The position numbers and the translations under genes were made by a program. Under the pieces are notes generated by a model. That model ran no database searches. It worked only from the letters and a program-made list of their open reading frames with translations, and was not told where the DNA came from. Shown piece after piece: positions 5,397 to 61,404 of a DNA stretch of 64,000 bases. Source of the DNA: Euzebyales bacterium (GTDB lineage: Bacteria > Actinomycetota > Nitriliruptoria > Euzebyales > JAHELV01); assembly GCA_036374135.1 (NCBI GenBank), contig DASUUK010000024.1, positions 81,305-145,304 on the forward strand, read 5' to 3'. How positions within the stretch are numbered: position 1 is the stretch's first letter; each line of letters starts with the position of its first letter.

Positions 5397-6173
5397 GTGA
5401 CGCCGGACGACCGGTCCCGCAGGCGCGCGCGCTGTCTGATCGTCGACGACGAGGCGCCTGCGCGCGAGGAGCTGCGCTACCTGCTGCAATCGTTCCCGGA
5501 CGTCCAGGTGGTCGGCGAGGCGACGAACGCCGAGGAGGCGGCCGTGCTGCTCGACTCGGTGGACTACGACGTCGTCCTGCTCGACATCCGCATGCCGGGT
5601 GGCACCGGTCTCGAGCTGGCGACGCGGCTGCGTGAGCAGAACCACCAGGCGGCCGTGGTGTTCACGACGGCGTATCCCGATCATGCCGTGGAGGCCTTCG
5701 ACCTCGCCGCCGCCGACTACCTGGTCAAGCCCTTCGACGCCGAGCGCCTGGGCCGGGCGCTGCGGCGGGCTCTGGGCTCGGCCGGATCTGACGAGGACGA
5801 CCCACCCCCGCGCCGCCACGACGGCGACGACCTGCCCCCCGCCCTCGCGACGCGGGTCCCCATCCAGCACGGCGGGCGCACGGTGCTCGTCGAGTCCGAC
5901 GACATCTACTACGCCACCGCGTCCCGCGGGTACAGCTACATCAAGCTGGCCGACGACCGGGTGCTCACCACCTACACGCTGGCAGATCTCGAGCGGAGGC
6001 TGACGGGGTTCTTCCGCTGCCACCGGTCGCATCTGGTCAACCTGTCACACGTGCGGGAACTGGTGTCGGACTACCAGGGCGGACTGGTCCTGGTCATCGA
6101 CGACCGGCAACGAAGCAGGGTGGAGGTGTCGCGCCGCCAGGCGGCCGCGCTGCGGCGCGCCCTCGGCGTCTGA
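5397..6173 (+). CDS. LytTR-family response regulator
   Basis: 258 residues. The receiver domain (about 10-125) carries the acidic pair in IVDDEAP, the phospho-acceptor Asp near residue 62 in LLDIRMP, Thr in FTTAY and Lys near 110 in YLVKPFD. An acidic linker follows, then a LytTR DNA-binding domain (about 155-258) with the ASRGYSYI and FFRCHRSHLVNL motifs. GTG at 5397 has GGAGG 10 bases upstream. It is the partner of the LytS kinase whose stop is 34 bases upstream, and probably controls one or both symporter operons. LytTR proteins bind pairs of roughly 9-base repeats; I did not find an unambiguous pair in the 1225-1486 spacer. Confidence 0.93.
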   Translation: MTPDDRSRRRARCLIVDDEAPAREELRYLLQSFPDVQVVGEATNAEEAAVLLDSVDYDVVLLDIRMPGGTGLELATRLREQNHQAAVVFTTAYPDHAVEAFDLAAADYLVKPFDAERLGRALRRALGSAGSDEDDPPPRRHDGDDLPPALATRVPIQHGGRTVLVESDDIYYATASRGYSYIKLADDRVLTTYTLADLERRLTGFFRCHRSHLVNLSHVRELVSDYQGGLVLVIDDRQRSRVEVSRRQAAALRRALGV

Positions 6174-6182
6174 CGGCCCAGC

Positions 6183-6476
6183 TCAGGCGTCGTCGTCCTG
6201 CTCGAACAGCAGGCCCTCGAGCCGGTCGCGCGGCGTGTCGCGGTCGTGGTCGCTGGCCTCCTGCTCGTCGTCCACCGCGTCACGCGAGACGCGCTCGAGC
6301 TCGTCCGGGTCGACGTTGTCGTCCAACAGTGCCCGCAGCTCCTCGTCCGAGAGGTCGGCGTGGGCCGCCGGCTCGCGCGGACGTGTCCGGCCGCCGGTCT
6401 CCGCGTCGGACGGCGCGCCGGCGCGCGTGCGCCTGGCGCCGCCGGTCGGGGGTGCGTTTGATCGTCGACGGGTCAT
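6183..6476 (-). CDS. small acidic protein, unknown
   Basis: 97 residues. It has a basic N-terminus (MTRRRSNAPP) and an acidic C-terminal half containing LSDEELRALLDDNVDPDELERV and ending in DDD. The ATG at 6476 has GAGG 9 bases upstream. It lies 74 bases after malate dehydrogenase on the same strand, so it is likely a tail gene of that transcript. It is predicted to be soluble and mostly helical or disordered. I recognise no family. Coding status is supported by the ribosome site and orientation rather than by homology. Confidence 0.6.
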   Translation of the reverse strand: MTRRRSNAPPTGGARRTRAGAPSDAETGGRTRPREPAAHADLSDEELRALLDDNVDPDELERVSRDAVDDEQEASDHDRDTPRDRLEGLLFEQDDDA

Positions 6477-6550
6477 GGGTTACAGCCTCGCTTCGTCGTC
6501 GTCGCCAGGGTCGCCCTGCGTTCGTCGATCTGTGGCGTCGGTGGTTGTGC

Positions 6551-7480
6551 TCAGACCAGTGAGGCGACGTCCGCCTGCTTGGCGCGAACGGCGTCGGCGG
6601 CCTCGTGCAGCGCAGCGCGCTCGTCGTCGGTCAGGTCGAGCTCGACGATCTCGGTCACGCCGCTGCGGCCGAGGCGAGCGGGTACGCCGAGGTAGACGTC
6701 CGAGATGTCGTACTGGCCGGTGAGCCACGCGCAGACCGGCAGCAGCGCGCCCTCGTCCTGCGCGATCGCGCGGACCATCCGAGCGGCCGCCGAGGATGGG
6801 GCATAGTACGCGGACCCGGACTTGAGCAGGCCGACGATCTCGGCGCCGCCGCTGCGCGTGGCGCTCACCAGTTGTTCGATCGTCGCGTCGTCCATCACCT
6901 CACGCAGGGGTCTGCCCTCTACGGTCACCTGTGACGGTACGGGCACCATCGTGTCGCCGTGCGAGCCGAGCGTGATCGCGTCGACCGACAGCGGCGAGAT
7001 GCCGAGCGCCGTCGCGATCTTGTCCGCAAAGCGCGCCGTGTCGAGCATGCCGGCCTGGCCCATCACCCGTGCGTGGGGGAACCCGGAGACCTGTTGGAAC
7101 AGTGCCGTCATCTCGTCGAGCGGGTTGGACACCACGATCACCACCGCGTCCGGCGACGTCTCGGCGATCTCCTGCGCCACGCCGCCGACGATCTTCGCAT
7201 TGCCCTCCAGCAGATCCATGCGGCTCATGCCCGGTGACCGAGGCTTGCCGGCGGTGACCACCACGATGTCGGAACCGTCGGTGTTCTCGTACCCGTTGGT
7301 GCCGATGACCTTCGTCTCGTAGCCCTCGATGGGACGGGACTGGTTCATGTCGAGCGCCAGGCCCTGCGGCAGGCCCTCGATGATGTCGACCATGACGACC
7401 TCGTCGGCGAAGTCCGCCTGGGCGATGCGCTGCACGGTCGTCGACCCGTACTTCCCCGCGCCGACCACGGTTACCTTCAC
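6551..7480 (-). CDS. mdh: malate dehydrogenase (LDH-like)
   Basis: 309 residues, the usual length for LDH-like malate dehydrogenases, which oxidise malate to oxaloacetate with NAD in the TCA cycle. It has the nucleotide-binding VGAGKYGSTTVQ at the N-terminus, VSNPLDEMT, the GQAGMLDTARF segment, and the catalytic His in LGSHGDTMVP. The GTG start at 7480 is fixed by GGGAGG six bases upstream and by the glycine loop; a longer open frame upstream belongs to no family. It lies 80 bases downstream of folD on the same strand. Confidence 0.95.
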   Translation of the reverse strand: MKVTVVGAGKYGSTTVQRIAQADFADEVVMVDIIEGLPQGLALDMNQSRPIEGYETKVIGTNGYENTDGSDIVVVTAGKPRSPGMSRMDLLEGNAKIVGGVAQEIAETSPDAVVIVVSNPLDEMTALFQQVSGFPHARVMGQAGMLDTARFADKIATALGISPLSVDAITLGSHGDTMVPVPSQVTVEGRPLREVMDDATIEQLVSATRSGGAEIVGLLKSGSAYYAPSSAAARMVRAIAQDEGALLPVCAWLTGQYDISDVYLGVPARLGRSGVTEIVELDLTDDERAALHEAADAVRAKQADVASLV

Positions 7481-49682: not shown

Positions 49683-51068
49683 TCACGCTAACGGATTCAC
49701 GCCGCGCAGCGACGCGTCCACCACCTGGATCGGGTGCAGCATGGGCAGGTCCGCGTCGAGGTGCCGCCTGAGCTGCAGCAGGCACCCGGGGTTCGAGGTC
49801 ACCAGCGCGTCGGGTGCGGCCGCCGCCACCGTCGCCGCCTTGCGCGCTCCGAGGTCGGAGGCGGCGTCCGGCTGCAGCAGGTTGTAGATGCCGGCCGATC
49901 CGCAGCAGATGTCGGGCTCGCTGAGCTCGACGAGATCGAGGTCGGGGATCGCGCGCAACGCCGCCCGTGGCTGGCTGCGCACGCCCTGTGCGTGTGAGAG
50001 GTGGCAGGCGTCGTGGTAGGCGACGCGGGCCGGGATCGGATGGCGCGCGGCGCGGGGCTCGAGCTCGTCGAGCAGCTCCGAGACGTCGCGCACCTTCGCC
50101 GAGAACGCCTGCGCCCGGTCGGCCCATGCCGGATCGTCCCGCAGCAGGTGGCCGTACTCCTTGAGGGTGGAACCGCACCCCGCCGCGTTGATGACGATGG
50201 TGTCGACGTCGGCATCCTCCATCGTGGCGATCATCCGCCGCGCGAAGCGCAGCGCCGACTCCTCCTCACCGGAATGCTCCATCAGGGCACCGCAGCAGCC
50301 CTGATCGGTGGGGACGACGACCTCGCAGCCCTCCATGGCCAGGACCCGCGCGGTCGCGGCGTTGACGTCGCCGAAGTAGACCGACTGCACGCATCCGGCG
50401 ACCATGCCGACCCGTCGGACAGGCGGGCGGGCGGGCTCACGCGACGCCCGACGTGGGGCGACGTGGGCCGGCAGCCGCCGCTGCAGCTCGTGCAGTGTGA
50501 TGTCGGGCAGCAGGCCCTCCAGCGCCTGGAGCCGCGCGGGCAGCCGCGCGAACACGCCCGAGCGTCGCAGCAGCCCGCCGATGCGCAGCCGCTGGTAGAC
50601 GATGCCGGCCAGCGCGGCGATCCGCAGGCGCCGGGGGTACGGGAACAGCGCGAAGACGAGCCGCCGGAACGCGCGGTCCGCCAGCGTCCGCGGATGGTTG
50701 CGCTCGATCTGTGGCCGGGTCGCCTCGATCAGCTTGTCGTACTGCACGCCGGAGGGGCAGGCGGTCACGCACGCCATGCACCCCAGGCAGCGGTCCATGT
50801 GGGTGACGAACACGTCGTCGATCGCGATCTCGCCGGCGGACGCGAGCTCCATGAGGTAGATCCGCCCGCGCGGCGAGTCCATCTCCTCGCCCCACAGCGC
50901 GTAGGTCGGGCAGGTCGGCAGGCAGAAGCCGCAGTGGACACAGTCGGCGAGCAGGTCGTCGGACGGCGGGCGCAGCAGATCGAACGCGCCGTGGCCGTCA
51001 CCGGCCGGCGCACCCACGACCGGGCCGCCCGCCTCGTGCTCGTCGGGCACCGCCGCGGCGTCGGACAT
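49683..51068 (-). CDS. glcF: glycolate oxidase iron-sulfur subunit
   Basis: 461 residues. Two 4Fe-4S ferredoxin sites lie at the N-terminal side (CVHCGFCLPTCPTY and CLGCMACVTACPSG). Two CCG-domain repeats follow, with DQGCCGALMEHSGEEE and PDICCGSAGIYNLLQ, and the end reads TSNPGCLLQLRRHL. GlcF passes electrons from GlcD/GlcE to quinone. The ATG at 51068 follows one copy of a duplicated 22-base element, so the ribosome site (GGTAGG) lies inside the repeat. It is third gene of glcD-glcE-glcF. Confidence 0.95.
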   Translation of the reverse strand: MSDAAAVPDEHEAGGPVVGAPAGDGHGAFDLLRPPSDDLLADCVHCGFCLPTCPTYALWGEEMDSPRGRIYLMELASAGEIAIDDVFVTHMDRCLGCMACVTACPSGVQYDKLIEATRPQIERNHPRTLADRAFRRLVFALFPYPRRLRIAALAGIVYQRLRIGGLLRRSGVFARLPARLQALEGLLPDITLHELQRRLPAHVAPRRASREPARPPVRRVGMVAGCVQSVYFGDVNAATARVLAMEGCEVVVPTDQGCCGALMEHSGEEESALRFARRMIATMEDADVDTIVINAAGCGSTLKEYGHLLRDDPAWADRAQAFSAKVRDVSELLDELEPRAARHPIPARVAYHDACHLSHAQGVRSQPRAALRAIPDLDLVELSEPDICCGSAGIYNLLQPDAASDLGARKAATVAAAAPDALVTSNPGCLLQLRRHLDADLPMLHPIQVVDASLRGVNPLA

Positions 51069-51131: not shown

Positions 51132-52307
51132 CTAGATCCCTCCCACGAACCGGCCCGGGGCGCAACGCCCGTCAGGATCGAGCTGCTGCTTGACCCGTCG
51201 CATCAGATCGATGCCGGACGGCGGCGGACCCCACACGTCCACGACCTCTGCGACGCCCTCTGCCGTGCGGCGGACTACGGCATGACCTCCCATGCCGCCC
51301 AGCGCGCCACGCCAGGCGTCGACGAACGCCGCGTGCGCTGCCCCGTCGCCGTCGAAGATCCGGGCGGTCATCACGCCGAGCACCACAGTGGTCTGCAGCC
51401 TGACGTCGACACCGCTGCGCTCGGCTGCGTCGGCGCATGCCCGCGCGGCATCCGGCACACGCGTCGGCAGGCACGCGGCCCGGACGACCGTCTGCCCGGG
51501 TGTGCCCGCGAGGCCCGCCGTCAGGCCGTCCCATGCCTGCCGCTCCTCGTCGCCGTCGAGCCGCGCGGGGTCGCCGCTGCCGTCGGCCAGCAGCCCGACC
51601 GTGTGCTCCAACTGGCCGTCCACGGCGTCGGTGTGCCCGGTGTAGCGGATCCACAGGTGCCCGTCGTCCCACTCGGCCGCGACCGGCTCCACCGGCGCGG
51701 CTCCCAGCGCGACCGCGGTCGCTGTGGCCGTTGCTGCGTCACAGGGCACCCGCAGGGTCGCCGATGCCTCCGGTCGCGGATGCACACGCAGGACGACCTC
51801 CGCGACGAACGCCAGCGTCCCCAGCGAGCCGCACAACAGCTTGGCCATGTCGTAGCCGGCGACGTTCTTGATGACGAAGCCACCGGTGCGCCCGACCGCA
51901 CCGTCGGCCAGCACGTACGTGGCGCCGATGACCAGGTCCCGCATGGTGCCGTAGGCCACACGTCGGGGTCCGGCGTCGCCACTGGCGAGCAGCCCACCGA
52001 TCGTCGCGCCGTCAGCGACGTGTGGGGGATCGATCGCGAGCCACTGGTCATGCTCGGCGAGGGTGGACTGCAGCGCCGACAGGGGCATGCCCGCCTGCAC
52101 GGCCACCGTCCCGTCGGCGTGGTTGTACGCCAGGACCCCGGTCATGGCCGCCGACGAGATGACGGCGGCGCTGTCCGGCGGCGGCGTCCCCCAGTCGAGC
52201 TTGGTGCCGCCCCCGGTGAACAGCAGCGGGCCGGCGGTGTCGAGCATCGCGTCGCGCACGCCCGCCAGATCCGATGGGCGGTGGGTCATCGAGGTGTCGG
52301 TGCTCAC
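51132..52307 (-). CDS. glcE: glycolate oxidase FAD-binding subunit
   Basis: 391 residues from GTG 52307, which overlaps the glcD stop as GTGA. FAD_binding_4 features: GPLLFTGGGTKLDWG near the N-terminus, GADDGTVAVQAGM-like strand (here HADGTVAVQAGMPLSAL), GATIGGLLASGDAGPRR, RTGGFVIKNVAGYDMAKLLCGSLGTL, and a C-terminal VKQQLDPDGRCAPGRF. GlcE is the second flavoprotein of the glycolate oxidase complex. An ATG at 52289 is a possible alternative start. Confidence 0.94.
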   Translation of the reverse strand: MSTDTSMTHRPSDLAGVRDAMLDTAGPLLFTGGGTKLDWGTPPPDSAAVISSAAMTGVLAYNHADGTVAVQAGMPLSALQSTLAEHDQWLAIDPPHVADGATIGGLLASGDAGPRRVAYGTMRDLVIGATYVLADGAVGRTGGFVIKNVAGYDMAKLLCGSLGTLAFVAEVVLRVHPRPEASATLRVPCDAATATATAVALGAAPVEPVAAEWDDGHLWIRYTGHTDAVDGQLEHTVGLLADGSGDPARLDGDEERQAWDGLTAGLAGTPGQTVVRAACLPTRVPDAARACADAAERSGVDVRLQTTVVLGVMTARIFDGDGAAHAAFVDAWRGALGGMGGHAVVRRTAEGVAEVVDVWGPPPSGIDLMRRVKQQLDPDGRCAPGRFVGGI

Positions 52308-53758
52308 AGCCGCTCCGCCAGCCCGGCCTGTTCGATCGCGTGCGGGCGGTACGGGCCGGGACGCTCGCCGCACAGCCGCGGGGTCGGAAACAGCTTGCCC
52401 GGGTTGCAGATCCCGCCCGGGTCGAAGGCGGCCCGCACGCGCTGCATCACGGCCAGGTCCTCCTCGCCGAACATCTTGGGCATCGAGCAGGCCTTGTCCG
52501 CGCCCACGCCGTGCTCGCCGGTGATCGACCCGCCCGCCTCGACGCACAGCTCGACGATGCGGATCGACAGCTGCTCGGCCTCCTCGGCCTCACCCGCGTT
52601 GCGGCCGTCGTAGAGCACCAGCGGATGCAGGTTGCCGTCGCCCGCGTGGAACACGTTGGCGACACGGTAGCCGGCCTCGTCACTCATCTCGCCGATGCGC
52701 TCGAGGACCTCGCCGAGCCTGGTGCGCGGGATGACGCCGTCCTGCACGAAGTAGTCACGCGACAGCCGTCCCATGGCCGCGAACGCCGCCTTGCGACCCC
52801 TCCAGATCAATGCCCGCTCCGCGGCGTCGGCGGCGACGCGGATGTTGGTGGCGCCGGCCTCCTCGCAGTGACGCTGAACCTCGCCGAACAGCGCGGAGAC
52901 CTCGGCCTCGGGGCCGTCGAGCTCCACGACGAGGACCGCGCCCGCCTCGAGGTCGAGCCCGACCTGCGCGTCCTCCTCGCACGCCTGGATCGCCAGGTTG
53001 TCCATCATCTCCATGCCGGCCGGCGTGATGCCGGCGGTGGTGATCGCCGTGACCGCGTCGCCGGCCTCGCGGGGCGTGTCGAAGTCCGCCAGCAGCGTTT
53101 CGACCGCTTCGGGTCGGCGCAGCAGGCGCACGATCACCCTGGTCGCGATGCCCAGCGTGCCCTCCGACCCGATCACGACCCCGCGCAGATCGTAGCCTGG
53201 CGTGTCCGGCACCGCGCCGCCCAGCTCGACGATGTCCCCGTCGGGCGTGACGAACTCGAGCCCGAGCACGTGGTTGGTCGTGAAGCCGTACTTCAGGCAG
53301 TGCACGCCACCCGAGTTCTCGGCGACGTTGCCACCGATCGAGCACACGATCTGGCTGGACGGGTCGGGCGCGTAGTAGAGGTCGTGGCGGGCGACCGCCG
53401 CCGAGATCGCGGCGTTCGTGACCCCCGGTTCGGCGACGAGGTACCGGTTCTCGACGTCGACGTGCAGGATCGAGCGCATGCGCGACAGCACGACCAGGAC
53501 CCCGTCCGCGTGCGGCAGCGCCCCGCCCGACAACCCGGTGCCCGATCCGCGGGCGACGTAGGGCACGCCGTCGCGCCGGCAGGCGCGCACCACGGCGGCG
53601 ACCTCCTGCGTCGTCGTCGGCAGCACGACGAGCGCCGGGCGGACCCGGTAGCCCGTGAGCCCGTCACACTCGTAGGTCCGCAGCTGTGCGCCGGTTGAGA
53701 TGACGGCGTCGGACCCGAGCAGACCCAGCATCTCGTCGCGGATCTGCGCGATGCCCAT
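52304..53758 (-). CDS. glcD: glycolate oxidase catalytic FAD subunit
   Basis: 484 residues. It oxidises glycolate to glyoxylate. The FAD domain has VARGSGTGLSGGALPHADGVL, VEPGV-type AEPGVTNAAIS, SIGGNVAENSGGVHCLKYG and VIGSEGTLGIATRVIVRL. The C-terminal domain has VFHAGDGNLHPLVLYD, EHGVGADKACSM and FDPGGICNPGKLFPT. The ATG at 53758 has GGAG 8 bases upstream; a very long open frame further upstream is not real. First gene of the operon; the divergent neighbour is another FAD/Fe-S dehydrogenase. Confidence 0.96.
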   Translation of the reverse strand: MGIAQIRDEMLGLLGSDAVISTGAQLRTYECDGLTGYRVRPALVVLPTTTQEVAAVVRACRRDGVPYVARGSGTGLSGGALPHADGVLVVLSRMRSILHVDVENRYLVAEPGVTNAAISAAVARHDLYYAPDPSSQIVCSIGGNVAENSGGVHCLKYGFTTNHVLGLEFVTPDGDIVELGGAVPDTPGYDLRGVVIGSEGTLGIATRVIVRLLRRPEAVETLLADFDTPREAGDAVTAITTAGITPAGMEMMDNLAIQACEEDAQVGLDLEAGAVLVVELDGPEAEVSALFGEVQRHCEEAGATNIRVAADAAERALIWRGRKAAFAAMGRLSRDYFVQDGVIPRTRLGEVLERIGEMSDEAGYRVANVFHAGDGNLHPLVLYDGRNAGEAEEAEQLSIRIVELCVEAGGSITGEHGVGADKACSMPKMFGEEDLAVMQRVRAAFDPGGICNPGKLFPTPRLCGERPGPYRPHAIEQAGLAERL

Positions 53759-54061
53759 CGCGTGAGCTCCGATCTCGCCGCCGGGGCGTCGACGAGTCGT
53801 CGTGGCGGTGCCTCCCCTGCGCCTAGCGACGATAGGACCCGACGATGCGGTGTCAAGACCTGGGCGACCGTCTCGACCGAAACGGTTCGCGAATGGGCCT
53901 GCACAGAGCTGGCTGCCGGAGCCGACCGCCGTTCGCAGGATCGTCGATGCCGGCTGTCTACGCTGTTCGGCACGTGACGATCCACGCTGACAGCCACGCC
54001 GACCCGTCAGGAGCGCGGCCGGCGGCCGCCCCGGCGGTCGGACGACCGACGAGGTGATGAC
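53759..54061. promoter_or_regulatory. divergent promoter region of glcDEF and the FAD/Fe-S dehydrogenase
   Basis: 303 bases with starts on both sides and no gene. CGACGA-G-TCGTCG at 53790-53802 is a perfect 13-base palindrome 32 bases before the glcD ATG, well placed for a repressor or activator. A second, weaker symmetry surrounds gaccgaaacggttcg near 53875-53890. No GlcC/LldR-like TGGTnnnACCA motif was found. Confidence 0.5.
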
Positions 54062-57000
54062 GTGACCGCTTCCGACCCCGACGTGCGACCGACCCGCGCG
54101 GTCACGGCGGACCTGTCCGACGACCGGATCGGCGGGCTGATCGCCGCGCTGCGCGCGGTCGTGCGCGGGGAGGTGCGGTTCGACACGCAGAGCCGCGCGG
54201 TGTACGCCACCGACGGGTCGAACTACCGTCAGGTCCCCATCGGGGTCGTCGTCCCCCGCGACGTGGACGACATCGTGGCCACCGTCGCCGCGTGCTGCGA
54301 GCACGACGTGCCGATCCTCGGTCGGGGCGCCGGCACCAGCCTGGCCGGGCAGTGCTGCAACACCGCCGTGGTGATCGACTGCTCGAAGCACGTCAACCGC
54401 ATCATCGACATCGATCCGGACGCCCGGACCGCCACGGTCGAACCCGGCGTCGTGCTCGACGCCCTGCGCGACGCGGCCGCCCCGCACGGGCTGACGTACG
54501 GCCCCGATCCCGCCACGCACGCCTGGTGCACGATGGGCGGGATCATCGGCAACAACTCCTGTGGCGTGCACGCGCTCATGGCCGGCAAGGCCGTGGACAA
54601 CCTCGAGGCCATGGAGGTCCTGACGTACGACGGGACGCGGCTGACGGTCGGTGCCACAGCACCTGACCGGCTCGACGCGATCATCGCCGCGGGTGGGCGA
54701 CGCGGGGAGATCCACCGGGGTCTGCGGGCCCTGCGGGATCGCTACGACAGGCAGATCCGCACCGAGTACCCGGACATCCCGCGACGCGTGTCCGGCTACA
54801 ACCTCGACGAGCTGCTGGACGACCGCGGCTTCCACGTCGCCCGTGCGCTGTGCGGCACCGAGTCGACCTGCGCGATCACGTTGCGCGCGACCGTCAACCT
54901 GGTCGCCAACCCGGCCGCGAGGCGGCTGCTCGTGCTCGGGTTCCCGGACATCTTCACCGCCGGCGACGCGGTGCCAGACATCCTCGAGCACGCGCCGATC
55001 GGCTGCGAGGTGATGGACCGCCGCCTCATCAGCGAGATGCAGGCCATGGGCATCCACCCCGACAAGGTCGCGATGCTGCCGGGCGGCGACGCGTGGATGC
55101 TGGTCGAGTTCGGGGCCGACGACCGCGGCGAGGCGACCGCGCGCGCCGAGGCGCTGGCAGCCGCGCTCGACGGGCCGACGAGCCGGCTGTTCGACGACCC
55201 CGACGACGAACGCAGGATCTGGGAGGTCCGCGAGAGCGCCCTCGGCGCCACGGCGCGGGTACCGGGGCGGATGCCGACGTGGGAGGGGTGGGAGGACTCC
55301 GCGGTCCACCCGACACGCATCGGCGACTACCTGCGTGGCCTGGCGCAGCTGTGGGACACCTACTGCTACAGCGGATCGTGGTACGGGCACATCGGCGACG
55401 GCTGCGTGCACACGCGCAACAACTTCGAGCTGACCACCGCCGCCGGCATCGCGACGTGGCGGCGGTTCATGGAGGATGCCGCCGAGCTGTGCGTCTCGTT
55501 CGGTGGCTCGTTGTCGGGCGAGCACGGCGACGGCCAGGGCCGCGGCGAACTGCTCGACCGGATGTACTCACCGGAGATGCTCGACGCCTTCCGCGCCTTC
55601 AAGCGGCTGTGGGATCCGACCGGCCGCATGAACCCGGGCAAGGTCATCGACGCCTACCCGCTGGACAGCAACCTCAGGCTCGGCACGGACTTCCGCCCCG
55701 TCGACCTGGGCCCGACCACGTTCGCGTTCCCCGACGACGGTGGCAGCCTGCTCAACGCCAGCATGCGGTGCGTGGGCGTCGGCAAGTGCCGCCGCCCCGG
55801 CAGCGGCGACATGTGCCCGTCCTACCAGGCGACCCGTGAGGAGGTGCACTCGACCCGGGGGCGCGCCCGCCTGCTGTTCGAGATGCTGCGCGGGGACGTG
55901 ACCGCGGCGACGTGGCGCAACGACGACGTCGCCGACGCCCTGGACCTGTGCATCTCGTGCAAGGCGTGCGCCAGGGACTGCCCCGTCGGGGTCGACATGG
56001 CGACGTACAAGGCCGAGTTCCTTTCCCACCACTACGCGGGCCGGCTGCGGCCCCGCCACGCCTACGCCCTGGGTCACATCGACCTCGCCGCACGGCTGGC
56101 CACACGCGCGCCCGGACTGGTCAACGCCGTCACGCACGCCCCGGCGCTGCGCCGGCTGGTGGCCAGGCTGGCGGGCATCACGACGGAGCGTGAGATCCCG
56201 CGGTTCACGTCCCAGACCCTGGTCGCGTGGTTCCGGGAGGCGCACGCGTCCTCCGCCGCGGACGGTGCCCACGCGCCGACGCGCACCGTCGGGACCGACG
56301 TGATCCTTTGGCCCGACACGTTCACCAACCACCTGACGCCCGGGCCCGGCCGCGCCGCCGTCCAGGTGCTGACCGCGCTCGGCTTCCGCGTGCGGCTGCC
56401 CGACCGCGCGTTGTGCTGCGGGCGCCCGTTGTACGACTTCGGCATGCTGTCGCGCGCACGACGGTTGCTGCTGCAGGTGCTGGACACGCTGCGCGACGAC
56501 ATCGCCGCGGGCACCCCGGTGGTCGGCGTGGAGCCCAGCTGTCTGGCGGTGTTCCGTGACGAGCTCGGCAAACTGCTGCCCGACGACGCGGACGCCGCCC
56601 GGCTGGCGACCCAGACGTTCTCGCTGTCGGAGTTCGTGCTGCTCCACCGCGACCGGTTCGATGCGGCGCTGGAGCGCGCCGGCACAGCCCGCCCAGGTCC
56701 GGGTGCGGCCCGGCTGCAGGCCCACTGCCACCAGAAGGCGGCCTGGGGCACCGTCGCGGAGGTGGAGGTGCTGACGGCGCTCGGCATCGACACGGAGGAA
56801 CTGGCGAACGGCTGCTGTGGACTGGCAGGATCCTTCGGCTTCGTGTCCGACCACTACGACGTGAGCATGCGCATCGGCGAGCAGCTGTTCGGCCAGGTCC
56901 GGGACGCCGAAGATGACGCCAGGATCGTCGCCGATGGGTTCAGCTGCCGGACACAGATCGCGCACGGAACCGGTCGCGCCCCGGTCCACCTCGCGGAGGT

Positions 57001-57163
57001 GCTGCGCGACGCGCTCGTGGGACGTGCGCCGCGGACCTCAGACACGCCCGGCGGTCCTGCGGCCGGCGACACCGCGAGTCGTCGCGCGCGTTGGTCCGCC
57101 CTGACCGCCTCGGCAGGTGCGGTGGCGCTGGGATGGTTGGCCGCGCGTCGGCGCCGACCCTGA
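54062..57163 (+). CDS. large FAD-linked oxidase/Fe-S protein (YdiJ/D-2-hydroxyacid dehydrogenase type)
   Basis: 1033 residues, a GlcD-like half fused to a GlcF-like half. FAD part: VPILGRGAGTSLAGQCCNTAVV, VEPGVVLDALRDAA, TMGGIIGNNSCGVHALMAGK, the GHIGDGCVHTRNNF metal/substrate segment, and SGEHGDGQGRG. Iron-sulfur part: GVGKCRRPGSGDMCPSYQA (about 570) and CISCKACARDCPVGVDMA (about 629), then CCG motifs RALCCGRPLYDFG and NGCCGLAGSFGF. Such proteins oxidise D-2-hydroxyglutarate, D-lactate or similar acids. The C-terminal 25 residues add a short hydrophobic stretch (ASAGAVALGWLAA) that may anchor it. GTG start with GAGG upstream. Confidence 0.9.
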   Translation: MTASDPDVRPTRAVTADLSDDRIGGLIAALRAVVRGEVRFDTQSRAVYATDGSNYRQVPIGVVVPRDVDDIVATVAACCEHDVPILGRGAGTSLAGQCCNTAVVIDCSKHVNRIIDIDPDARTATVEPGVVLDALRDAAAPHGLTYGPDPATHAWCTMGGIIGNNSCGVHALMAGKAVDNLEAMEVLTYDGTRLTVGATAPDRLDAIIAAGGRRGEIHRGLRALRDRYDRQIRTEYPDIPRRVSGYNLDELLDDRGFHVARALCGTESTCAITLRATVNLVANPAARRLLVLGFPDIFTAGDAVPDILEHAPIGCEVMDRRLISEMQAMGIHPDKVAMLPGGDAWMLVEFGADDRGEATARAEALAAALDGPTSRLFDDPDDERRIWEVRESALGATARVPGRMPTWEGWEDSAVHPTRIGDYLRGLAQLWDTYCYSGSWYGHIGDGCVHTRNNFELTTAAGIATWRRFMEDAAELCVSFGGSLSGEHGDGQGRGELLDRMYSPEMLDAFRAFKRLWDPTGRMNPGKVIDAYPLDSNLRLGTDFRPVDLGPTTFAFPDDGGSLLNASMRCVGVGKCRRPGSGDMCPSYQATREEVHSTRGRARLLFEMLRGDVTAATWRNDDVADALDLCISCKACARDCPVGVDMATYKAEFLSHHYAGRLRPRHAYALGHIDLAARLATRAPGLVNAVTHAPALRRLVARLAGITTEREIPRFTSQTLVAWFREAHASSAADGAHAPTRTVGTDVILWPDTFTNHLTPGPGRAAVQVLTALGFRVRLPDRALCCGRPLYDFGMLSRARRLLLQVLDTLRDDIAAGTPVVGVEPSCLAVFRDELGKLLPDDADAARLATQTFSLSEFVLLHRDRFDAALERAGTARPGPGAARLQAHCHQKAAWGTVAEVEVLTALGIDTEELANGCCGLAGSFGFVSDHYDVSMRIGEQLFGQVRDAEDDARIVADGFSCRTQIAHGTGRAPVHLAEVLRDALVGRAPRTSDTPGGPAAGDTASRRARWSALTASAGAVALGWLAARRRRP

Positions 57164-57174
57164 CCGACCCGGGT

Positions 57175-58071
57175 TCAGCCGCCGACCCGCACGCCGGCGA
57201 GATGCTCGAGCGCCCTGACCAGAGCGTGGTTGCCTTCCCCACCGAGGCCGCGTCGCTGCAGCGTCGCGTACAGCTGGCTGATCAGTGCGGTGCCGACGGC
57301 GGGCAGCTGCAGCCGCTCGAACGCCTCGAGGACCAGCCTCAGGTCCTTCTGCTGGAGATCGATCGTGAAACCGGGCGACCAGTCGCGCGCGGCGACCTGT
57401 GGGCCCCGGTTGGACAGCATCCAGCTGCCGGCGGCGCCGCCGCTGACGGCCGCGAGCGTGCGCTCCAGATCGAGGCCCTCGGCCTCCGCCAGCAGCATCG
57501 CCTCGCTGACGCCGAGCATGTTGTGAACGACCAGGATCTGGTTGACCAGCTTCACCGCCTGCCCGGCACCGTGCTCCTCGCCGACGTGGGTGATCGTCTG
57601 ACCCATCGCGTCGAGCACGGGACGTGCGCGCTCGAACTGCTCGGCGGGACCGCCGACCATGATCGACAGCGTGCCCTGCGCGGCACCCTCGCTGCCCCCG
57701 CTGATCGGCGCGTCCAGCATCGCGATGTCGCGCTCGGCCAGGGTCGACGCGAGGGCCCTGGTCGTGGCGGGGCTGATGGTGGAGCAGTCGACGACCAGCG
57801 TGCCGGGGGTCGCACCGTGGATCACGCCGTCGTCGCCGGTCAGCACCTGCTCGACGTCGGGAGTGTCGCTGACGCAGATGATCACGATGTCCGCGGCGTC
57901 GGCGACCGCGGCCGGCGCGTCGGCCCACGTGGCACCCGCGTCCACGATCGCCTCCGCGCGCTGCCCCGTCCGGTTCCACACGGTCAGCCCGAACCCGGCG
58001 TCGAGCAGGTTGCGGCTCATCCCCCGACCCATGATCCCGAGGCCGATGAAGCCGATGTGCTGGTCGCTCAT
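57175..58071 (-). CDS. 2-hydroxy-3-oxopropionate (tartronate semialdehyde) reductase type
   Basis: 298 residues of the beta-hydroxyacid dehydrogenase family: GFIGLGIMGRGMSRNLL at the N-terminus, the DAPISGGSEGAAQGTLSIMVGG substrate loop, and GAGQAVKLVNQILVVHNMLGV with the catalytic Lys, then GFTIDLQQKDLRL. It best suits tartronate semialdehyde reductase, which with glyoxylate carboligase turns glyoxylate into glycerate; 3-hydroxyisobutyrate dehydrogenase is an alternative. The ATG at 58071 is chosen by the family start; the ribosome site is weak. Its end is 11 bases from the convergent dehydrogenase. Confidence 0.88.
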   Translation of the reverse strand: MSDQHIGFIGLGIMGRGMSRNLLDAGFGLTVWNRTGQRAEAIVDAGATWADAPAAVADAADIVIICVSDTPDVEQVLTGDDGVIHGATPGTLVVDCSTISPATTRALASTLAERDIAMLDAPISGGSEGAAQGTLSIMVGGPAEQFERARPVLDAMGQTITHVGEEHGAGQAVKLVNQILVVHNMLGVSEAMLLAEAEGLDLERTLAAVSGGAAGSWMLSNRGPQVAARDWSPGFTIDLQQKDLRLVLEAFERLQLPAVGTALISQLYATLQRRGLGGEGNHALVRALEHLAGVRVGG

Positions 58072-58277: not shown

Positions 58278-59735
58278 ATGTCCGAGGCGTCGCAGACACA
58301 TCCATCCGGTGAGGCGCTCGCTGCCGAGATCCCGTCGCGCAACCTGCCGGGCATCCCGTACGCGGATCTGCCCGAGCCCAGGACGTTCCGTCACATCGTC
58401 GGTCCGAGCGTCATCCTGCTCGCGACCTCGATCGGGTCTGGCGAGTACGTGCTCTGGCCGTTCATCACCTCGCAGGTGGGCCTGGTCGCCATGTGGATGG
58501 CGATGGTCGGCATCACCATGCAGTACTTCATCAACATGGAGATCGAGCGCTACACCTTGGCGACCGGCGAGACCGCCGTGACCGGGTTCACGCGCTTGTG
58601 GAAGCCGTGGGGCGTCATCATGGCGGCGCTCGCCCTGATCTCGTGGGGGTGGCCCGGCTGGGCCACCGGCGCGTCGACCGCGCTGACGTTCGTGCTCGGC
58701 ACCGGCACGGACGCTGTTCCGTTCATCACGATCGCCGCGCTCGTCGCGATCGGCATCGCGCTGACGGTCTCGCCGGTCGTGTACCAGATGGTCGAGAAGT
58801 TCCAGATGGTGCTCGTCGCGCTCATCGTGGTGTTCCTCGTCGTCGCGGTGATCGTCGCGATCGACGGCGACACCTACGTCGAACTCGCCCGGGGTGTCGT
58901 CAGCTTCGGCCAGGTCCCGGCCGACATCCCGACCGCGACCCTGCTCGGCGCGCTGGCCTTCGCCGGCGCCGGCGGCACCGTCAACCTCGTGCAGTCCAAC
59001 TGGATCCGCGACAAGGGCCTCGGCATGGGAGCGCGCATCCCAAGGATCGTGTCGCCCTTCACCGGCGAAGAGGAGGCGATGGTCTCGACCGGCTACTTCT
59101 TCCACCGCGACGAGGAGAACATGCGGCGCTGGAACGGCTGGTGGAAGGTCGCCAACCACGAGCAGTTCTGGATGTTCCTGGTGATCGGCGGGGTGTCGAT
59201 CCTGCTGATGTCGGCGTTGACGTACGCGACCATCGGCACCGGCAGCGAAGCGGAGAACTTCGACTTCATCAAGCTCGAGGGTGAGGCGCTGCAGGACGCC
59301 GTCGCGCCGTGGTTCGGGCAGTTCTTCTGGGTCACCGGCATCGTCGTGCTGCTGTCGACGAACCTCGGCGTGCTGGACCACATGGGTCGCATCACCGCCG
59401 ACGTGTTGAAGGTCGACTTCCTGCGCGACAACGACAACTGGTCCGAGAGCCGCATCTACTTCGTCGTGATCTGGGCCGAGATCGTGTTCGGTGCCATCGT
59501 GCTGCTGACGGTGGTCGACGCGCCGCTGGTGCTGCTGGTGATCTCGTCCTCGATCAACGGCGTCGTGATGTTCATCTACTCGGCGCTGCTGATCCAGCTC
59601 AACTGGGGCAAGCTACCGAGGGAGATCAAGCTGCGCAGCTACCGACTGGTCGTCATGGGTCTCACCGTGCTGTTCTTCGGCTACTTCTCCTTCATCACGG
59701 TCGTCGACCAGTTCGGCACGCTGTTCGGCGGTTGA
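58278..59735 (+). CDS. Nramp-fold transporter lacking canonical metal motifs
   Basis: 485 residues with eleven or twelve helices, in the Nramp family order. In classical Nramp, TM1 carries DPGN and TM6 carries MPH. Here TM1 reads ILLATSIGSGEYVLWPF (about 47-63) and the TM6 region reads LLGALAFAGAGGTVNLVQSNW, so both metal-binding motifs are missing. A long polar loop with MGARIPRIVSPFTGEEEAM and HRDEENMRRWNGWW follows. The neighbours handle glycolate, tartronate and hydroxy acids, so an organic-acid or other non-metal cargo is plausible; this is inference. It is followed by a microprotein gene. Confidence 0.85.
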   Translation: MSEASQTHPSGEALAAEIPSRNLPGIPYADLPEPRTFRHIVGPSVILLATSIGSGEYVLWPFITSQVGLVAMWMAMVGITMQYFINMEIERYTLATGETAVTGFTRLWKPWGVIMAALALISWGWPGWATGASTALTFVLGTGTDAVPFITIAALVAIGIALTVSPVVYQMVEKFQMVLVALIVVFLVVAVIVAIDGDTYVELARGVVSFGQVPADIPTATLLGALAFAGAGGTVNLVQSNWIRDKGLGMGARIPRIVSPFTGEEEAMVSTGYFFHRDEENMRRWNGWWKVANHEQFWMFLVIGGVSILLMSALTYATIGTGSEAENFDFIKLEGEALQDAVAPWFGQFFWVTGIVVLLSTNLGVLDHMGRITADVLKVDFLRDNDNWSESRIYFVVIWAEIVFGAIVLLTVVDAPLVLLVISSSINGVVMFIYSALLIQLNWGKLPREIKLRSYRLVVMGLTVLFFGYFSFITVVDQFGTLFGG

Positions 59736-59741
59736 GCGGCG

Positions 59742-59828
59742 ATGAAGCAGTTTTGGCTCAAGCTGCTGCTCACGATGACGTTGTGGCTGGTCTTCGTGTC
59801 GATCGGCTGGATGCTCGGCTGGATCTGA
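59742..59828 (+). CDS. 28-residue single-helix membrane microprotein
   Basis: The sequence begins ATG AAG CAG TTT and gives MKQFWLKLLLTMTLWLVF, then an SIGWMLGWI end, followed by TGA. One basic residue pair at the front and about 22 hydrophobic residues make a clean single membrane helix. It starts 6 bases after the transporter stop, with a GAGCGGCG site just upstream. Too short for routine gene calling. It may be a small accessory subunit of the Nramp-like transporter, as KdpF or AcrZ are for others; that role is inference. Confidence 0.7.
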   Translation: MKQFWLKLLLTMTLWLVFVSIGWMLGWI

Positions 59829-59892: not shown

Positions 59893-61404
59893 TCAGCGCA
59901 CCAGGGCCCGCGCGGTGTCGAGATCGGGTCCGATGCCCATGCGGACGTCCTCGTCGACGCACGTGATCACGGCGGTCTGATCGTCGCCTGCGCGGATCAT
60001 GCGCTCGTCGCGGCGCGTCGGGGCGTCCGTGGCGGCGGGGAAGGCGCGCTCGTACCACGTCACCAGCGCGTCGCACAACGGGCCGTCCGCGGTCTGGGTG
60101 AGGGCGAGACCAACGGCCGTCGCGTCCTCGTCGGTCCACAGCGTCAACTCGCCCCCGGTCCAGGCCAGCGCCTGCTCGCGCGGACCGTCGATCGCCTGGG
60201 ACGTGTCGTCACCCGGCGCCTCGAACAGCCAGAGCAGATCGGCGGCACCGAACGTGGTGGCGCGTCGGCGTTGCCAGTCCCCGCCGGGATCACCCGGATC
60301 CCTGACGTCGACCGCGGCGGTCGGGTAGCGCTGCGGATCGAGGATCTCGGCGCTCGTCTCCGGCAGCCGATCGTAGGCGGCGTCGACCGCCTCCCAACCA
60401 CCCTCGAGGTAGCGGGCGCAGGCGAAGCGCAGTCCCGCCAGGTAGGGGAAGTCCAGGCTCCGCGCGACGTAGTGCGGCACGTCAGCGAGTCGCCGCTGCG
60501 CCGCGCGCGCATCCGGGTCGGCGCTCAGCCCGAGCTGCTCGTCGATCGAGAGCCCGACCACCGTGAACTGCTGCTGGGCCAGCGTCGCGTCACCTTCGGT
60601 GAGTGCCAGGGCCGCCAGCGCAGCATCGCCGTCGGTGAGGTCCTCGAAGGTGTCGACCGGCAGCTCGAACGCCTGGTCCGCCAGCGCGTGCTGCAGTTCG
60701 TGCGCGACGACGGTCTGGGCGGTCGGATCGAGACCGTCCTGCGCCGGATCGGCACGCACGACCAGTTCCTCGGTCTCGGTGTCGTAGAAGCCCGCGACCT
60801 GCCCGGCGAGCAGGTCGCTCTGCAGCTCCACGAGGTCGGTGTCCGGCGCGACCGCCCCGAGGGCGGCGAGCAGACGCCCGTCGTCGTCGGCATCACCGGC
60901 GGCGTACTCCTCGCGGACCCGGTCGGCGACGCGGCGGGCGATCGCGTCGGCGTCGAGCAGGGTGGGCGACGGCTCCCGGTCGAACTGCAGTGACCGCAGG
61001 TCCTCCACGGCGTCGGCGATCAGCCCGACCTGCTGCGTCGTCCGGCCGTCGGGCACGTCCCGTGTGCCGGGCGCGCCGGCCTGCTGCACGCAGCGCGCCA
61101 ACCGCGCGGTGTCGTCATCCAGCAGGCCCTCCAGCCCGCCGGCGTCCTCCGGGAACAGGCTGCGCAGCGCCTCGCCCGCCTCTCCGTTCAGCAGGTCGTC
61201 GAGCGGCTCGGCCGGCTCCTCGGCGGCGCCCGCGCCGCCGTCGGCGGCCTGTTCCGACCGGAGCTCCGCGAGGTCGCCGCGCGCGGCGGCGAGCTCGGCA
61301 CGCGTGCTCAGCAGCTGGCCGGAGCGCACGAGCGCGAAGGTCGTGCTGACCAGCAACGCCACCACACCGAGCACCGCGATGGCGATCACGGCGGACCGTG
61401 GCAT
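59893..61404 (-). CDS. membrane-anchored HExxH metalloprotease-like protein
   Basis: 503 residues. An N-terminal helix (MPRSAVIAIAVLGVVALLVS) is followed by a coiled, Glu/Ala-rich segment (about 35-75). VVAHELQHALADQAFEL at about residues 232-248 has HExxH with H235, E236 and H239. LALTEGDATLAQQQF supplies E270, a likely third zinc ligand (gluzincin type). The rest is acidic and extracytoplasmic. GAGGAG precedes the ATG at 61404. I do not recognise a named family; a related DUF of actinobacterial lipoprotein-like proteases is likely. The substrate is unknown. Confidence 0.8.
   Translation of the reverse strand: MPRSAVIAIAVLGVVALLVSTTFALVRSGQLLSTRAELAAARGDLAELRSEQAADGGAGAAEEPAEPLDDLLNGEAGEALRSLFPEDAGGLEGLLDDDTARLARCVQQAGAPGTRDVPDGRTTQQVGLIADAVEDLRSLQFDREPSPTLLDADAIARRVADRVREEYAAGDADDDGRLLAALGAVAPDTDLVELQSDLLAGQVAGFYDTETEELVVRADPAQDGLDPTAQTVVAHELQHALADQAFELPVDTFEDLTDGDAALAALALTEGDATLAQQQFTVVGLSIDEQLGLSADPDARAAQRRLADVPHYVARSLDFPYLAGLRFACARYLEGGWEAVDAAYDRLPETSAEILDPQRYPTAAVDVRDPGDPGGDWQRRRATTFGAADLLWLFEAPGDDTSQAIDGPREQALAWTGGELTLWTDEDATAVGLALTQTADGPLCDALVTWYERAFPAATDAPTRRDERMIRAGDDQTAVITCVDEDVRMGIGPDLDTARALVR

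Follow-up and report, generated by a model that had tools for sequence, protein, structure and literature searches.

Genes of the locus and initiation of the microprotein

The window, i.e. the whole stretch of 64,000 nucleotides from a Euzebyales bacterium that was analysed, carries a very short ORF directly behind the gene of an NRAMP-like transporter, with genes resembling those of hydroxyacid oxidation upstream. The following features are referred to below.

49683..51068, minus strand: glycolate oxidase Fe-S subunit, GlcF-like (332.6 bits for window:49686-51065 against NF008434 GlcF, cut-off 333)
52304..53800, minus strand: glycolate oxidase subunit, GlcD-like, assigned by eye; the start is approximate and the mechanical ORF extends further upstream
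54062..57163, plus strand: fused FAD-linked oxidase / Fe-S protein of the D-lactate or D-2-hydroxyacid dehydrogenase type, 1033 aa (PF01565, PF02913, Fer4, CCG)
57175..58071, minus strand: tartronate-semialdehyde-reductase-like protein of the beta-hydroxyacid dehydrogenase family (PF03446 and PF14833), divergent from the transporter
58278..59735, plus strand: NRAMP-like transporter, 485 aa, 11 predicted TM helices (LeuT fold; NCBIfam NF037982 Nramp_1)
59736..59741, plus strand: spacer of 6 nt between transporter stop and microprotein start, without a convincing Shine-Dalgarno site
59742..59828, plus strand: microprotein gene, 28 codons plus stop, MKQFWLKLLLTMTLWLVFVSIGWMLGWI; a conserved family under purifying selection, with the codon-position G+C of a coding gene

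Some of these assignments are based on matches below the model cut-offs. The 57175..58071 protein scored 294.7 bits against TIGR01505, and a relative (L087:8360-9895) reached 559 bits against PRK11230/glcD, both below cut-off. On the other side of the microprotein, a convergent gene (59893-61404, minus strand) resembles the haloarchaeal Hvo_1808 surface-protein family, here in a bacterium, with 111 bits against NF038145 (cut-off 200).

Reading of the ORF bore out the original prediction of an ATG start, 28 codons for a single hydrophobic helix and a stop (TGA) at 59742-59828. The predicted distance of six bases to the transporter gene was also correct, as the transporter TGA ends at 59735. In the product MKQFWLKLLLTMTLWLVFVSIGWMLGWI, a single TM helix joins a basic N-terminus, predicted to lie inside, to a G-W-I end predicted to lie outside. 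The ribosome site that had been placed before 59742 did not hold: the 20 nt upstream of the start pair with the anti-Shine-Dalgarno sequence no better than shuffles do (-6.2 kcal/mol in the window genome versus -7.3 kcal/mol for the shuffles). Stop-to-start coupling is therefore the likelier initiation route in the window genome. Good ribosome sites precede the microprotein in several relatives (L006, L013/L014, L018, L019). In seven Rubrobacter loci (L023, L026-L028, L030, L032, L033), a similar stretch, about GCTAACGGGGGAGCGCGGCCGGGGTG, is common to the 40-80 nt gap between transporter and microprotein; it may be a ribosome-binding or RNA element that these loci share. A terminator was looked for downstream of the microprotein and was not better than in shuffles, while an Rfam search gave no match.

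A conserved coding gene linked to one transporter clade

Transporter orthologues were gathered from the genus, the order and the class of the window genome, as well as from the Rubrobacteraceae. Behind 24 of them (window included), with 47-89% identity to the window transporter, an ORF of 28-33 aa was found following the pattern M(L)K-x-L-W-L-R-x-L-x-A-x-x-I-F/W-x-x-L-...-L-L-G-L-L. Its starts are ATG, GTG or TTG, and the spacing to the transporter varies from 0 to 81 nt in all three relative frames. The variable frame and spacing indicate that the microprotein is initiated and translated separately; an extension of the transporter by read-through or frameshift was ruled out, since the relative frame varies among relatives.

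A comparable trailing ORF is present behind most orthologues of the transporter. As background, the 148 other genes of the fetched neighbourhood loci were used, and none of them was followed by a hydrophobic ORF of 26-36 aa starting 0-85 nt after its stop. Purifying selection on the microprotein is clear. In seven pairs of relatives, 44 amino acid differences were observed versus 73.3 expected under neutrality, when the same nucleotide changes were placed at random (5000 simulations, of which none fell below 57). The nucleotide changes in these pairs were distributed over codon positions 1/2/3 as 45/15/62, and a second set of seven pairs gave 43 amino acid differences versus 66.9 expected. The 90 nt downstream of the ORF showed 20-59% identity in close pairs whose ORFs were 74-89% identical. 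The G+C content at codon positions 1/2/3 is of the coding-gene type, with 0.39/0.32/0.96 for the window ORF and 0.58/0.42/0.95 for the transporter. A chance open stretch that reads as a hydrophobic helix in high-G+C DNA could be suspected from the short length and from the lack of a ribosome site in the window genome. This explanation is hardly credible, as it is contradicted by the conservation across families, the purifying selection, the coding codon-position G+C and the background of 0/148. The ORF at 59742-59828 is a real, conserved coding gene with its own initiation.

A profile search of 396 Actinomycetota genomes gave 27 places at E<=1.5e-3. All 27 adjoin an orthologous transporter, and the pair is present in at least 26 genomes, belonging to Egibacteraceae relatives, Rubrobacteraceae and one further lineage. 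No orphan or elsewhere-linked copies were found in these genomes at the same threshold, and weaker matches mostly lie inside long unrelated frames. One of the copies (G072:C217) is on a contig that begins inside the transporter C-terminus (DQWDNIKELFGL, then the stop), with the microprotein 9 nt later. The original prediction had named the recurrence of the short frame behind orthologous transporters as one way to check it. When this was run, the frame was present, under purifying selection and, across the 396 genomes, linked only to the NRAMP-like transporter. The linkage to one transporter clade is strict, and a conserved, transporter-linked microprotein gene is well supported.

When 38 transporters were placed in a maximum-likelihood tree, the distribution of the microprotein needed 4 changes, versus a mean of 11.6 with shuffled labels. 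The tree contains one large clade of bearers, in which only L005 and L016 are without the microprotein, and a single bearer in the sister group (L020). The microprotein is also present in G072, which is of the same genus as the L020 genome. Among the sister and outer relatives, L020 and the truncated G072:C217 copy are the only bearers. As transporters without it occur in the clade, in the sister group and further out, the microprotein is not essential to the fold. No such ORF was found for Planctomycetota homologues in 13 searched and two fetched loci; L108 and L115 show hydrophobic frames that look unrelated. No microprotein was found either with the homologues from Aureimonas (alphaproteobacterial), Nonomuraea and haloarchaea. 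The homologues on haloarchaeal plasmids (L049-L052) are extended at the C-terminus by about 60 residues, which include a further TM helix.

In R. indicoceani (L046), a few kb separate two Nramp-like paralogues, at 647-2071 and 6001-7470. Only the paralogue located by lactate genes bears the microprotein; none was found with the second one, which precedes a UxaA-family hydrolase. The microprotein ORF of R. indicoceani comes after DU509_RS14990 and lies in a gap of the PLSDB gene table, which is known to be incomplete. A tblastn search of plasmids with a 30-aa consensus gave no match and also missed this R. indicoceani plasmid copy. In another locus (L024, G286:C106), the usual stop of the microprotein is lost and the frame runs on to about 80 aa; this microprotein goes with a second copy of the transporter in that genome and is possibly decaying. 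Scanning of 24 members against Pfam and NCBIfam gave no convincing family match.

Identity and probable substrate of the transporter

The window transporter matched NCBIfam NF037982 Nramp_1 with 481 bits (cut-off 50), while no Pfam family was found at E<=1. The best matches in a fold search were YcsG, EleNRMT and DraNramp (Deinococcus Nramp) at E 1e-6 to 1e-5, YcsG ranking first, with a low-confidence model as query. The architecture is that of a LeuT-fold NRAMP protein. Canonical NRAMPs carry DxxN in TM1 and A/CxxM in TM6, and the NRMT magnesium transporters carry DxxG and TxxA/T at these sites (PMC8806188). In the clade, GSGE stands in TM1 where NRAMP has the DxxN metal site. The protein thus lacks the DxxN of a canonical NRAMP metal transporter, and also the Asp of an NRMT at the TM1 site. 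The TM6 segment reads AFAGAGGxxNLxQSN, with no clear A/CxxM motif when read by eye without a structural alignment fixing the methionine column.

In the window and in Egibacteraceae relatives, the neighbours of the transporter include GlcD/E/F, the tartronate-semialdehyde-reductase-like enzyme and the fused FAD/Fe-S hydroxyacid oxidase. The Rubrobacter neighbours comprise LutB/LutC, a lactate-racemase-type nickel-pincer isomerase, a protein resembling D-threonate kinase and a PdxA-type dehydrogenase. The distant haloarchaeal homologues adjoin FAD/Fe-S oxidases and L-lactate permease in several species. No metal genes were found among the identified recurrent neighbours, which are hydroxyacid oxidases and regulators. 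The NRAMP-like relative PxpT is required by C. glutamicum for growing on 5-oxoproline, a carboxylate (PMC13274462).

The GSGE motif in TM1, the hydroxyacid-gene neighbours and the PxpT precedent together point to a 2-hydroxycarboxylate as the best inference. Judged from the TM1 motif and the genomic context, the transporter probably imports compounds of the glycolate, lactate or threonate type and not divalent metals. This clade is probably misnamed as 'Nramp family divalent metal transporter', because its TM1 lacks the metal-binding Asp/Asn and its neighbours are hydroxyacid oxidation genes. According to the automatic annotation, the microprotein would instead be the subunit of a true divalent-metal importer. 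The NCBIfam name of the transporter agrees with this, and the related YcsG of B. subtilis is a reported Mn importer that raises Mn levels (PMC10448178). A metal importer is nevertheless quite unlikely in view of the replacement of DxxN by GSGE (PMC8806188), the TM6 segment and the recurrent neighbours.

Proposed role of the microprotein and comparison with known systems

A short one-TM ORF that is coupled to one transporter family and is under purifying selection has the features of a helper subunit, as a functional kind and not as a sequence family. The microprotein is likely a single-helix accessory subunit of the NRAMP-like transporter. The best explanation of the whole, which we consider fairly probable, is a dedicated accessory microprotein that is translated by coupling and packs in N-in/C-out orientation on a 2-hydroxycarboxylate NRAMP-like transporter. 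The 28-33 residue microprotein would be co-transcribed with the transporter and translated from its transcript, from a start codon of its own and coupled to termination of the transporter. It would insert as a single pass, and the N-in/C-out orientation is predicted because of the basic residues at the N-terminus and the neutral or acidic C-terminus. The end of the transporter is predicted outside, since a basic loop precedes the last helix. The microprotein would then pack against the outside of the 11-TM LeuT-fold protein and could stabilise it or tune the transport cycle, while the transporter would import 2-hydroxycarboxylates.

A fusion in frame would give the helix the wrong orientation, which may be the reason why it is kept separate. 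In the window, a read-through fusion is in frame, and its AlphaFold2 model contains 11 helices and the microprotein helix (pLDDT 54.7). The linker in this model is 3 residues long, which is unsuited to an N-in/C-out helix behind a C-out transporter. Docking from the fusion model was rejected, the confidence being too low for contacts.

The position of the ORF immediately downstream of an 11-TM transporter, and the extra C-terminal helix of the haloarchaeal homologues and of some NRAMPs, could also suggest that the microprotein is a split-off twelfth TM helix, now a separate ORF. This origin is very unlikely. The K/R residues are at the N-terminus of the microprotein versus the C-terminus of the haloarchaeal helix; by the positive-inside rule, the two therefore run in opposite directions. 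Furthermore, the bacterial relatives nearest to the clade have neither the extra helix nor the microprotein, and spacing and relative reading frame vary. No in-frame fusion of the microprotein sequence to the transporter was seen among the homologues.

Distances of microprotein and transporter correlate with r 0.67, a correlation that vertical descent alone also gives. One-sided conservation along the microprotein helix was looked for and none was seen (p 0.33). Two residues of the transporter, A161 (TM4) and M460 (TM11), are invariant in 24/24 microprotein-bearing rows, L020 included, whose transporter groups with the microprotein-less ones yet keeps both. Among about 121 conserved columns, they are the only ones changed in both in-clade non-bearers (L005 and L016), and they are also changed in most outer non-bearers. 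The signal is modest, as about 20/325 row pairs (about 6%) share two or more such columns, and A161/M460 can be regarded only as a lead to a candidate contact site.

These residues also bear on whether the microprotein might be a free regulatory membrane peptide, e.g. a protease recruiter or sensor modifier, that adjoins the transporter only for co-expression. Its absence in L005 and L016 shows that it is dispensable, and small hydrophobic peptides of the MgtR type promote degradation of membrane proteins (PMC6813294). A free peptide appears unlikely, however: in the profile search of the 396 Actinomycetota genomes the microprotein was never away from the transporter, and its loss accompanies changes at two otherwise invariant TM positions of the transporter, which direct contact fits better, although an inhibitor or degrader binding the same transporter would look alike.

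If the accessory-subunit reading is true, one branch of the NRAMP/SLC11-like transporters would gain an unannotated family of 28-33 aa and a small-subunit architecture, and the microprotein would be needed when such transporters are expressed for transport assays or structures. It would also sharpen the case that organic acids, and not metals, are carried by many proteins named 'Nramp family divalent metal transporter'. No paper on a small subunit of NRAMP was found in the literature searched. A more far-reaching version, possible but rather doubtful, makes the microprotein the first small subunit dedicated to an NRAMP-fold transporter: it would dock in a TM4/TM11 groove, with A161 and M460 as its markers, and would help to make hydroxycarboxylate import possible in a clade of supposed metal transporters.

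Among known systems, MetS is the small subunit of MetPS, the methionine/alanine importer of Corynebacterium glutamicum (NSS family, LeuT fold), reportedly described by Trotschel et al. in 2008, a paper that PMC5105988 cites. KdpF is a single-TM helper subunit of KdpABC. Like MetS, the microprotein would be a very small protein of one helix whose gene directly follows that of a LeuT-fold importer; unlike in MetPS, its partner is NRAMP-like (NF037982 Nramp_1) and not NSS (SLC6-type). In the scan of 24 microprotein members against NCBIfam and Pfam, the models for MetS, KdpF, CydX and AcrZ gave no match at E<=1. CydX is the single-TM helper subunit of cytochrome bd (PMC6005532), and AcrZ is a short helix on the periphery of AcrB that stabilises or tunes the complex (PMC7267776). 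The microprotein resembles AcrZ, CydX and KdpF as a short helper helix with a proposed place on the periphery of a large membrane protein, and differs from them in partner and sequence.

As for the transporter, PxpT and YcsG are likewise NRAMP-fold proteins of about 11 TM adjoining carboxylate-catabolism genes, in their case for 5-oxoproline (PMC13274462). The substrate genes are different here, and the available parts of the sources on PxpT and YcsG describe no microprotein. The NRMT/EleNRMT Mg transporters share the fold according to the fold search, but their TM1 DxxG (PMC8806188) is absent from the clade. By analogy with AcrZ on AcrB or MetS on MetP, the microprotein likely serves as a peripheral helper helix.
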